Shown: positions 31,976-35,040 of the stretch, piece by piece
Layout of the letters: each line of letters opens with the position of its first letter
How positions within the stretch are numbered: position 1 is the first letter of the stretch
Assembly: GCF_003417465.1 (NCBI RefSeq)
Contig: NZ_QVMV01000007.1
Coordinates: 124,001-188,000, forward strand
DNA length: 64,000 nucleotides
Direction of reading: 5' to 3'
DNA from: Wenzhouxiangella sp. 15190
Lineage (GTDB): Bacteria > Pseudomonadota > Gammaproteobacteria > Xanthomonadales > Wenzhouxiangellaceae
Notes under the pieces: model-generated
What the model saw: only the letters and a program-made list of their open reading frames with translations
What the model was told of the DNA's origin: nothing
Database searches by the model: none
Made by a program: the position numbers and the translations under genes

Positions 31976-32122
31976 TCTTGACTCGGGCACTGGCTGCCGG
32001 AATTGGCATAGCGGTACGCCCGGACCGGCGTGCCTGGCCCGAGAAGCAAGATGAAGCGCGCAAGCTGGACCAGGCAAGGTTGCCCATGAGATGGGCACAA
32101 CTCGAATTTTTGGAGGTTATAC

Positions 32123-32962
32123 ATGCAACTCATTCGAAAATCATGGATGCCCGTGCTGGGGGGACTTCTCTTGGCCGTGGCTGCTTCGGCGCTTGCCCGC
32201 GATGTGCAAATCATGGTTCTGGGTACTTACCACCTCGCCAATCCCGGGCTGGACCTGCACAACGTTGAAGTCGACGACGTCACTTCCGAGTCGCGGCAGC
32301 GCCAGCTCGAGGATATCGCGACGATGCTCGCCGCCTTCGGCCCCGACCGGGTCGCCGTCGAGGCTGTGTCCCAACGCGAGGATCTTTCGCTTGCGGCGTA
32401 TTCGGAATTCGAGCCGGAAGTACTCGAGGAGACTCGCAACGAGCGCGTGCAGATCGGCTTTCGCCTGGCGCACAGGCTGGATCATGAGCACGTCTACGGG
32501 ATCGACGAGAAGGACGAGGAGAAGGATTACTATCCCTTCGACCAGGTCGCCGAGTTCGCCGAGGCAAACGACCAGATGGCCGCCATCGAGGCGATGAACC
32601 GCATGGGGTCGTCCTATGTGCAGACCGTCGGTCGGCTGCATGCCGAAGGACATATCGGCAACGCCCTGCACTGGATCAACCAGCCCGCGATGATCGAGCA
32701 GATGCAGGGTATCGGCTACTACGGCATGCTCGACGTCGGCGATGCGGACCGCCAGCCCGGGGCCCTGCTCAATGCCCGCTACTACGAACGCAATGCCCGC
32801 ATTTTTGCCAAGCTTATGACGGTGGTGGAGCCGGGTGAGCGCGTGTTGGTCGTCTACGGTTCGGGTCACAGCTACTGGCTGCGGCATTTCGTGACCGCAA
32901 CCCCGGGCTTCGAGCTGGTCGAGCCGAACGATTACCTGTCGGCGCTGGTCGGACACTATTAA
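32123..32962 (+). CDS. Exported DUF5694-like protein (TraB/ChaN-type fold likely)
   Basis: 279 residues from ATG 32123, preceded by a strong GGAGG site. Signal peptide MQLIRKSWMPVLGGLLLAVA with cleavage after ASALA. The core begins QIMVLGTYHLANPGLD, has RVAVEA, and ends with VLVVYGSGHSYWLRHF, the Gly-His pairs shared with TraB/ChaN-like putative metal hydrolases. Its stop codon TAA lies inside the terminal repeat of the MITE-like element. Joining the element's flanks would restore CAC-TAA, so the last residue (Tyr) comes from the insertion. Confidence 0.78.
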   Translation: MQLIRKSWMPVLGGLLLAVAASALARDVQIMVLGTYHLANPGLDLHNVEVDDVTSESRQRQLEDIATMLAAFGPDRVAVEAVSQREDLSLAAYSEFEPEVLEETRNERVQIGFRLAHRLDHEHVYGIDEKDEEKDYYPFDQVAEFAEANDQMAAIEAMNRMGSSYVQTVGRLHAEGHIGNALHWINQPAMIEQMQGIGYYGMLDVGDADRQPGALLNARYYERNARIFAKLMTVVEPGERVLVVYGSGHSYWLRHFVTATPGFELVEPNDYLSALVGHY

Positions 32963-33238
32963 CCCGGCGGCAATGTAGATTACATTCAGCCGCGCTGTGC
33001 CTTTCGACAGCAAGGCAGCGAAACGCCGCTGTAGCACTCCTACAGCAAGTTTCGCTAACGCCGTCTGTCGGGAGGCACAGCGCGGCCTGTCATGCAACAT
33101 CAATAAGTTAGGGGCTTCAATAATGGCCCGACTCGGCGTTGTCGCTCTTGCCAAGGAAATCACCCTTCCCGGCGAGCGACGCCTTGATTCGAGCCATTCT
33201 TGAAGCCCTGAATGCAATCTATATTGCCGCCGGGTTAA
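32959..33238. mobile_element. 280-bp MITE-like element with 31-bp terminal inverted repeats and TA flanks
   Basis: Terminal arms 32959-32989 and 33208-33238 begin and end with TTAACCCGGCGGCAAT / ATTGCCGCCGGGTTAA and pair with two mismatches over 31 bases. TA occurs immediately outside both ends (32957-32958 and 33239-33240), as expected for a target duplication of IS630/Tc1-type transposition. Inside are two further arms: 32989-33001 with 33074-33086 (13 bp, perfect, enclosing nested stems GCGAAAC/GTTTCGC and GCTGTAG/CTACAGC), and about 33110-33128 with 33190-33207. The three stems meet as a three-way junction. No transposase is encoded. It accounts for the gap between the DUF5694 gene and the SDR gene. 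Confidence 0.75.
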
Positions 33239-33266
33239 TAAAGGCGGCTTGAACCTGGAGAATCGC

Positions 33267-33956
33267 ATGACCGAGCAGCGACGAACCGCACTGGTGACCG
33301 GGGCCAATCGGGGCATTGGCCTCGCTATTGCCCGCGGTCTGGCCGAACGCGACATCCACGTGCTGGCCGGCGCCCGTAGCGTCGACAAAGCGCAGGAGGC
33401 TGTCGGCCAGATCGATGGCTCGGCGACCGGGGTTGCGCTGGATCTGAGCGAGCCCGGCGTGATCAGTGAAACGGCGAACCAGCTGGCCGATCATTACGGA
33501 CCGATCGATATCCTGGTCAACAATGCCGGTGTGCTGGTCAAGGACGACTTCGAGCAGCTGGGGCTGGCCGACTTCGTCCACTCACTGCAGGTGCACCTTA
33601 TCGCCGCATTCGAATTGATCCAGGTGTTGGGCGTGCCCATGAAGGAGCGTGGTTGTGGGCGCATCGTCAACATGACCTCTGGCTGGGGCGCCTTCGCGGA
33701 GAACCTGGAAGGCCCGCCGGCTTACGCCATCAGCAAGGCCGGGCTCAATGCCCTGACGGTCAAGGCAGCGCAGGCCCTGGGCGAGAAAGTGAAGGTCAAT
33801 TCCGCTTGCCCCGGCTGGGTGCGCACCGATATGGGCGGGGATCAGGCGCCGAATTCGGTCCAGCAGGGCGCCGATACCCCGATCTGGCTGGCCACGCTGC
33901 CCGATGACGGCCCGACCGGCGGTTTCTTTCGCAAGCGCCGGCCGATCGACTGGTAG
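33267..33956 (+). CDS. Short-chain dehydrogenase/reductase
   Basis: 229 residues from ATG 33267, with GGAG 6 bases upstream. Classical SDR: the cofactor motif TGANRGIGLA at residues 11-20, DLSEPG, NNAGVL, the catalytic Ser in NMTSGWG, YAISK (Tyr and Lys), and PGWVRTDMGG. ARS after the second strand suggests NADP(H) preference. Similar proteins act as carbonyl or short-chain ketone reductases. The substrate is unknown. Before insertion of the upstream element it would have started about 30 bases after the DUF5694 gene, so the two were probably an operon. Confidence 0.88.
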   Translation: MTEQRRTALVTGANRGIGLAIARGLAERDIHVLAGARSVDKAQEAVGQIDGSATGVALDLSEPGVISETANQLADHYGPIDILVNNAGVLVKDDFEQLGLADFVHSLQVHLIAAFELIQVLGVPMKERGCGRIVNMTSGWGAFAENLEGPPAYAISKAGLNALTVKAAQALGEKVKVNSACPGWVRTDMGGDQAPNSVQQGADTPIWLATLPDDGPTGGFFRKRRPIDW

Positions 33957-33960
33957 CCGC

Positions 33961-35040
33961 TCACTCCGTCCATAGACCCATCTGATCGCCGCTTCTCGTG
34001 GGCGCTCGGAACAGTTCGGTATTCAGCGGCGGCCGGTCGTCGCGGTCCAGGCCGTGGCGCCTGCGCGCGACCCGGAAACGGTTGGCGATCAGTTCGGCGA
34101 CCTGGCCGGCTCCCGTCTGGCGCCGGCCCCAGGTCGGGTCGTAGTCATGTCCGCCGTGCAGTTGCCTTACCAGGCTCATGACGTGGTCGGCGCGCTCCGG
34201 GTAATGAGCGCCTAGCCACTCGCGGAACAAGTCCTTGAGTTCGTGCGGCAGGCGCAGCACCACGTAGCCGGCTCTTGTCGCCCCGGCGTCGGCCGAAGCT
34301 TTCAGGATGGCCTCGATCTCGCGGTCGTTGATGGCAGGAATCACGGGCGCAAACATCACGCCCGGATGGATATCGATGTCGCGCAACTCCGAAAGGATTC
34401 GAAGTCTTGCGTTCGGCGAGGCCGTGCGCGGTTCGAGCGTTCGCTTGAGGTCGTTGTCCAGGGTAGTGATGCTGACCGAGACCGATACGAGGTTGTCGCG
34501 GGCGAGATCGGACAGCACGTCGAGGTCGCGCAAGATGGTCACGCCCTTGGTCAGGATGCTGACCGGGTGGCGGTATTCGACCAGCAGCTCCAGCAGCCGG
34601 CGGGTCAGGCGCAACTCGCGCTCGATCGGCTGGTAGGCGTCGGTATTGATGCCGAGCACGATCGGGCGGCAGTGGTAGCCGGGTTTCCTGAGCTCGGCCT
34701 CGAGCAGTTCGACCGCGTTTTCCTTGTGAAACAGCCGGGTTTCGAAGTCCAGCCCGGGGGAGAGATCCAGGTAGCTGTGCGAGGGTCGGGCGAAGCAGTA
34801 CACGCAGCCGTGCTCGCAGCCGCGATAGGGGTTGATCGATTGCTCGAATGGGACGTCGGGCGAGCCGTTGCGCGAGATGATCGAGCGGGCTCGTTCGGCC
34901 CTTACCGTGGTCCGGAGGGCGGGCAGCTCTTCCAGCTCCCGCGTCCAGCCATCGTCGAGGGATTCGACTCGGTGCATCGAGAAACGGGATTTCGGGTTGG
35001 TCGCGGCACCCCGGCCTTTTGTCTTCCTGTGATATCTCAT
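33961..35040 (-). CDS. Radical SAM protein of the PA0069/SplB-like family
   Basis: 359 residues from ATG 35040 (MRYHRKTKGRG). The 4Fe-4S binding motif CEHGCVYC is at residues 75-82, within NPYRGCEHGCVYCFARPSH. GINTDAYQPIE, ILTKG and ARDNLVSVSVSITTLD follow in the order seen in PA0069-type proteins, which are related to spore photoproduct lyase. The reaction is not established for this family. The frame is open upstream of the ATG, but that extension overlaps the divergent Lon gene and has no family sequence. It converges with the SDR gene. Confidence 0.88.
   Translation of the reverse strand: MRYHRKTKGRGAATNPKSRFSMHRVESLDDGWTRELEELPALRTTVRAERARSIISRNGSPDVPFEQSINPYRGCEHGCVYCFARPSHSYLDLSPGLDFETRLFHKENAVELLEAELRKPGYHCRPIVLGINTDAYQPIERELRLTRRLLELLVEYRHPVSILTKGVTILRDLDVLSDLARDNLVSVSVSITTLDNDLKRTLEPRTASPNARLRILSELRDIDIHPGVMFAPVIPAINDREIEAILKASADAGATRAGYVVLRLPHELKDLFREWLGAHYPERADHVMSLVRQLHGGHDYDPTWGRRQTGAGQVAELIANRFRVARRRHGLDRDDRPPLNTELFRAPTRSGDQMGLWTE

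Follow-up and report, generated by a model that had tools for sequence, protein, structure and literature searches.

A 280-bp element in the 64-kb stretch of DNA analysed here (the window) is very probably a MITE of an IS630 subgroup that was inserted at a TA in trans and that carries a core kept by selection, with replaceable terminal inverted repeats (TIRs). MITEs are usually viewed as decayed transposons whose inside has little meaning. Here, the inside is conserved across a bacterial class and the ends are replaceable, which provides a testable case of what a transposase-free element needs besides its ends. MITEs of IS630 elements are known; what the sources searched do not describe is this variant, with a covarying core that extends across the class and sits between different TIRs. 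In the mechanism we propose, an IS630-type transposase of the TA-TTAACCCGGC subgroup, acting in trans, would insert the non-autonomous MITE into a TA. The core, laid out as TCAG and a bulged hairpin, a spacer, the same type of hairpin inverted, and CTGA, would be a unit kept by selection for its folding, swapping TIRs to suit the available transposase. TIR exchange could take place when window-type elements land in the TIRs of other elements.

The element, its insertion site, and its copies

The sequence-only reading had described a TA-flanked element of 280 bp with 31-nt TIRs and 2 mismatches, and its arms, TAs, and internal repeats were all recovered when measured again. The TIRs are 31 nt long with 2 mismatches, and with the TA included the two arms (32957-32989 versus 33208-33240, 33 nt) are 94% complementary, again with 2 mismatches. 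Internal inverted repeats (32989-33010/33065-33086 and 33112-33134/33186-33208) form two long hairpins. The element is short, has TIRs, and lacks a transposase gene, as is characteristic of a MITE. No Pfam family matched the 415-codon frame that runs across it on the minus strand, no promoter-like site was found in it, and it holds one terminator-like site, on the minus strand (0.7 expected by chance). A single strand is predicted by RNA folding to adopt a three-way junction, the shape that had been deduced from the two further hairpins: the fold energy of 284 nt as RNA is -173.2 kcal/mol, against a mean of -89.5 for shuffled sequences (z = -16.1), and 0 of 200 shuffles equal the window element. 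The same reading was right to call this shape untypical of simple MITEs, and the core has turned out to be the more interesting half of the element.

Table 1. Features of the window at the insertion site.
Feature	Position	Strand	Evidence and remarks
DUF5694 gene	32123..32962	+	Pfam DUF5694, 6.7e-38; last codons CAC-TAT-TAA include element bases
Left TA, target-site copy	32957..32958	.	Sequence; sister copies L116 and L120 show an exact TA duplication
MITE, 280 bp	32959..33238	.	Inverted repeats, fold, copies in relatives
Left TIR	32959..32989	+	Ends in TTCAG (32985-32989); outer 22 nt correspond to an IS630 end
Hairpin 1	32989..33086	+	Core module R1 at 33000-33075 (+), E 1.7e-17
Inter-hairpin spacer	33087..33111	.	
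Hairpin 2	33112..33208	-	Core module R1 at 33122-33198 (-), E 4.4e-22
Right TIR	33208..33238	-	Inverted-repeat comparison
Right TA, target-site copy	33239..33240	.	
Short-chain dehydrogenase gene, downstream of insertion	33267..33956	+	Pfam adh_short, 2.2e-41

The insertion has consequences for the gene upstream. When the element and one TA are removed in silico, the DUF5694 gene ends CAC-TAA, and in the window the ORF ends CAC-TAT-TAA. By duplicating TA the insertion would have kept an in-frame stop codon and added one Tyr, in line with the proposal that a stop TAA had become TAT-TAA. The window is a case in which TA insertion into a stop codon is able to leave the gene intact. For the dehydrogenase gene the start codon is ATG 33267, preceded by GGAG, or alternatively TTG 33249.

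Matches to DUF5694 were found in 6 of the 30 genomes of the genus, and the comparison of the site itself is limited to the three that have the dehydrogenase beside DUF5694 (G003, G010, and G016); in G024, which also has a DUF5694 match, the dehydrogenase was not found in the stretch examined. Empty sites in relatives had been suggested as a check, and the element is indeed absent here in these three species. In G010 and G016 the dehydrogenase follows DUF5694, and the G010 gene ends CAG-TAG at the codon where the element-free window would end CAC-TAA. In G003 a 117-codon gene lies between the two; it has a tRNA-binding domain (L038 2286-2639, 5.5e-13) and overlaps the DUF5694 stop, so the junction between DUF5694 and the dehydrogenase is variable between species. 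The flanks of the window copy are identical to no empty allele, and the DUF5694-dehydrogenase spacers of the relatives differ in length. Since G003, G010, and G016 are different species, we infer the old allele at the window site.

The element has many copies in relatives. Of 41 genomes searched at the DNA level (the own genome plus 40 relatives), 15 had matches, every one of them a member of the same genus, and the 31-nt end pattern, with at most 3 mismatches, occurs in 16 of the 30 genus genomes (0 for a reversed-pattern control). We read 33 paired-end elements, including the window copy, in eleven genomes of the genus, these being loci selected for the ends found and not a full census. Most of them (25/33) are 280 or 281 bp long, and the remaining lengths are 80, 158, 159, 195 (two), 202, 346, and 777 bp. 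TA stands at the left in 30, at the right in 29, and on both sides in 26 of the 33, which leaves 7 copies without TA on one side. Copies in relatives are found in both orientations between unrelated flanks. In the complete genome G018, copies L116 and L120 are inserted inside another repeat. With the element and one TA taken out, 26 of 26 bases agree with the uninterrupted repeat present in L114, L119, and L121, and this empty-site match shows that TA was duplicated. The TA on both sides of the window copy suggests that it was duplicated there too. TTAA was rejected as the target, since the empty sites agree with TA in both length and sequence. The expectation of dispersed copies was thus borne out at other TA sites in relatives and failed in the own genome, which holds one full copy: a second was not found there, only lone end matches on three other contigs. 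With blastn, the window element matched no plasmids and a related element no phages; another related element gave one plasmid match, of 57 bases, in Azotobacter. The original observation of a TA-flanked element is confirmed, and the window element is a mobile MITE.

Some variants deserve mention. The 777-bp version in G018 (L116 555-1331) has a gene for a 155-aa IS200-like transposase (Y1_Tnp, 2.2e-42) between its TIRs, and the 80-bp version of the same genome (L125 339-418) is a near-perfect hairpin made of TIR and stem base only. In window-type ends, the four variable bases that follow TTAACCCGGC (bases 11-14) mostly agree between the two ends of an element (ACGA/ACGA, AGGT/AGGT, ACCA/ACCA, GGCA/GGCA; some elements differ), as though the two arms had been held to match each other.

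Which transposase could have moved the element? The IS630 transposase domain (DDE_3) was found in 3 of the 30 genus genomes and not found in the own genome. Given that the own genome has neither another full copy nor this domain, the window element is probably stranded there. Autonomous IS630 elements with matching ends exist in the relatives G045 and G097. G045 has four IS630 copies of 1108 bp (three) or 1096 bp, with TA outside both sides and with ends, TA-TTAACCCGGCAGGAAAGTAGAT or TA-TTAACCCGGCAACCAAATAGCT, that match those of the window element. Their 347-aa transposase belongs to the IS630 family by NCBIfam (NF033545 transpos_IS630, 2.8e-69) and by Pfam. Hence, the IS630-type transposase with matching ends that the sequence-only reading proposed to look for is present in a relative, in these 1.1-kb elements. 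Its idea of a MITE mobilised by an IS630/Tc1-type enzyme agrees with the copies, the empty sites, and the IS630 ends, and finds no support within the own genome, where the transposase domain was not found. More generally, ends like TTAACCCGGC (at most 2 mismatches in 10) occur on both sides of 24 and on the right of all 29 related IS630 loci examined, out of 80 kept in a scan of named genomes. These shared ends identify the outer 22 nt of the MITE as a signature of the TTAACCCGGC IS630 subgroup, and a transposase of this subgroup probably moved the window copy. Among the module-rich genomes of the order, 4 of 15 have IS630, so a living partner is seldom in evidence; incomplete assemblies may hide some IS630 genes. 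The IS630 of G018 itself (L078) was rejected as a partner, as it has no window-type ends.

The core module and its spread

The inside of the window element is a reusable core without recognisable transposase remnant. Both of its hairpins are one module of ~77 nt in which the unpaired motifs are conserved and the stems covary, and simple DNA similarity revealed the same hairpin next to other repeats. In order, the module consists of helix A, CAAGGC, helix B, GC(C/A)G, helix C, and a loop, after which CAAG follows C' and AACGC(A/C)G follows B'. This plan is common to both window hairpins, both hairpins of a repeat with CTAGTGGGCCATGCGG... TIRs, and hairpins of further repeats. A MAFFT alignment of 20 modules has 13 invariant columns, 6 unpaired in the structure applied and 7 in short paired parts beside bulges; the motif invariance is partly built in, because these first 20 modules were collected by a pattern requiring AAGGC, CAAG, and AACGC. 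Outside this alignment the motifs are frequent, not invariant: 37 model-found modules elsewhere in the class have CAAGGC in 35, CAAG in 32, AACGCnG in 30, and GC(C/A)G in 35 cases, and 61 other modules have them, in the same order, in 54, 52, 50, and 54, bearing in mind that a few modules are cut by contig ends and that the model itself favours the motifs. On inspection, columns 1-10 of helix A vary freely.

The covariation score of the MAFFT alignment is 0.587, versus 0.192 +/- 0.017 when shuffled. Two model-fitted alignments, which lean towards the model, score 0.731 and 0.829 (0.177 and 0.199 shuffled), and in none of the three is the score reached by any of 500 shuffles. The count of pairs changed on both sides is a weaker measure than these scores: the 23 such pairs of the MAFFT alignment (20.4 shuffled) are reached by 3 of 500 shuffles, and the counts of the two model-fitted alignments by 18 and 31 of 500, respectively. 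In the alignment scoring 0.829, 334 stem cells are changed on both sides, versus 92 when shuffled. Two further observations support the module independently of the model and of the motif selection, with the proviso that many modules are related and their counts are not independent events. TCAG lies at most 22 nt upstream in 75 of 96 distinct modules (7 expected), at 13-14 nt in 65 of them. The TIR stems of 27 inverted module pairs have 21.8 of 26 positions paired, versus 6.3 when slid, a mean that includes 4 pairs scoring 3-12 of 26, at least 3 of them through a TCAG placed too far inside. The balance of G-T over A-C is 42:15 in the redundant module set and, counted outside the model, 17:10 (p = 0.25) among non-redundant modules; a call between DNA and RNA on this basis was dropped, since the excess is not significant once relatives are removed.

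Over the 64-kb window, the covariance model of the module, R1, matches at E<=0.1 only the two hairpins of the element. Rfam gave 0 matches at gathering for window positions 32000-34200, and at E<=1 it gave 4 weak matches over 8 loci (three microRNA families and one sRNA), all below the cut-offs. No counterpart of the core was found in Rfam for nine stretches or in the open-access literature searched.

The module is widespread. At E<=0.001, R1 matches 25 of the 30 genus genomes (453 matches summed over the 30) and, in the order, at least 69 of 151 genomes and at least 27 of 64 genera. At E<=1e-6 in the class (Gammaproteobacteria), the matches cover at least 113 of 369 sampled genomes and at least 89 of 272 genera, the counts for order and class being lower bounds in which part of the candidates were scored. 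Among genomes searched individually, 18 of 27 have modules at E<=1e-6; with four set aside that were known positives beforehand (G000, G045, G286, and G097, the last a member of the window's own family), there are 14 new positives in 23. They include Candidatus Thiodiazotropha taylori (17 modules), the Olavius algarvensis Gamma 3 endosymbiont (29), Marinobacterium nitratireducens (17), Variovorax paradoxus ISL-3 (4), and Pseudomonas veronii (2). Desulfosarcina widdelii (2) and Desulfoluna spongiiphila (9, best 7.5e-7) are positive as well, and these two we take to lie outside the class. Nine of the 27 genomes, including Thiorhodospira, Halomonas cerina, and Chlorobium sp. N1, have no module at E<=1e-6. 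The own genome has 21 module matches at this threshold, two of them in the window element; two others (L332 and L333) have the TIRs TAATGAGATCCTTGATCAGCAGG and TTACTAATGCGGTCACTAATCAGCAG.

Different ends around one core

Inverted pairs of the module, mostly after TCAG, occur inside several TIR classes. The sets of TIRs around the core are TTAACCCGGC (window type), CTAGTG or CTAGTAC, TTACTAAGAC, TTACTAATGCGGTCAC, TAGGGAA, and others, and 29 of 116 modules are without an assignable class. A second IS630 subgroup has ends similar to the CTAGTG set: TIRs that start with TAGTG or TAATG are present in four relatives of the G070 transposase (L279, L280, L281, and L289), and six G097 ends (one end of each was seen) read CTAGTGTAGTGTCC, close to the MITE ends CTAGTGTAGTGCGTCC and CTAGTGTAGCGTCC. 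The AGGGAA set may, we presume, belong to IS5-type ends. For each of the 50 paired modules compared, the most similar module from another TIR class (mean best 0.67) is nearer than the sister module (0.46), a contrast between a best-of-many and a single value that we use as supporting evidence only. Because cores are shared between TIR classes, we infer that TIRs have been exchanged, and the same core between other TIRs, one set resembling those of a second IS630 subgroup, suggests a unit selected for folding whose TIRs change. Nesting is a plausible route for the core to gain new TIRs. By reading, 7 of the 11 window-type elements of G018 lie in or at the TIR of another such element or of a lone remnant: three of them in CTAGTG TIRs, another three at TTACTAATGCGGTCAC ends, and the last at an old end of its own type. 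For two of the three nests at TTACTAATGCGGTCAC ends, no core follows.

There could be a class-wide selfish family in which the bulged core is the recognised object and the lasting lineage, exchanging TIRs between transposase subgroups, a view for and against which we find the balance even. The likeliest task of the core, at slightly less than even odds in our view, is to fold, as single-stranded DNA or as RNA, join the TIRs, and present its conserved bulges to a protein that aids its spread or survival.

Three other readings concern the core only and overlap with our best explanation, and the likelihoods given for them are not meant to sum to one. The core could be that of an ordinary RUP-like IS630 MITE with passive hairpins, the repeated module being one old family whose TIRs have drifted. 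The hallmarks of MITEs are present, and a stable fold is described as usual for MITE transcripts (PMC2229807, PMC10969869). Nevertheless, drift would not readily yield 334 versus 92 doubly changed stem cells beside conserved unpaired motifs, or TIR sets that resemble different IS630 subgroups, and we regard passive hairpins as rather unlikely. The stem covariation, the insertion between two co-directional genes, and the ratio of 42:15 in the redundant set would fit a structured RNA, either an sRNA or a hairpin for mRNA processing, that has been spread by transposition and could be read through. However, the modules are inverted, so each strand carries one sense and one antisense module; the stretches tested match no Rfam family; the element has no promoter-like site and its sole terminator-like site is on the minus strand, with 0.7 expected; and the G-T excess loses significance without redundancy (17:10, p = 0.25). 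This makes a role as RNA doubtful in our view.

REPs and REPINs offer another model. REPINs are made of two inverted imperfect hairpins with a fixed short motif outside each and are associated with RAYTs; the REP tetranucleotide is GTAG/GGAG. The core might be REPIN-like, with single-stranded DNA hairpins for an HUH (RAYT-type) nuclease and TCAG as the tetranucleotide, placed inside IS630 TIRs. TCAG does stand outside most of the inverted bulged hairpins, an arrangement known from REPINs. We nevertheless think this improbable: the hairpins are far larger than REPs, most of the pairs read have TIRs outside the core, and no free core was seen. Set beside REPINs, the window element is distinguished by its TCAG, its ~77-nt module, and the IS630-like TIRs and TA outside the core. 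Finally, the fact that the own genome holds a single full copy would suit an immobile, conserved palindromic regulatory element of the window locus, but the element is absent at three related loci and relatives have dispersed copies at unrelated sites, with empty sites shown, which renders such an element hardly credible.

Relation to known repeat systems

Integron attC sites are long bulged hairpins in which certain unpaired bases are conserved and the stem sequence is free to vary; the base of the stem carries paired R boxes that are conserved. The core resembles them in the long bulged hairpin, in the conserved unpaired bases, and in the freely varying stem sequence, and differs in forming inverted pairs inside TIRs, scattered over genomes. 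The RUP of pneumococcus, an element of 107 bp with TIRs like those of IS630-Spn1 (PMC2229807), shares with the window element the IS630-like TIRs, the TA target, the absence of a transposase, and the insertion into other mobile elements. It differs in its 107 bp and in its host, and the accessible part of that source describes no two-module core for RUP (PMC2229807). The CIR repeats of Caulobacter also have two hairpin arms with a linker and are conserved across species; according to the same part of the source, they are ~110 bp long, with other motifs, and are without the end-pairing stem that the window element has (PMC2229807). Outside window-type elements, the spacer between modules is often CCCTTCGGG or CCCGAAGGG (e.g., in L174, L176, and L187).
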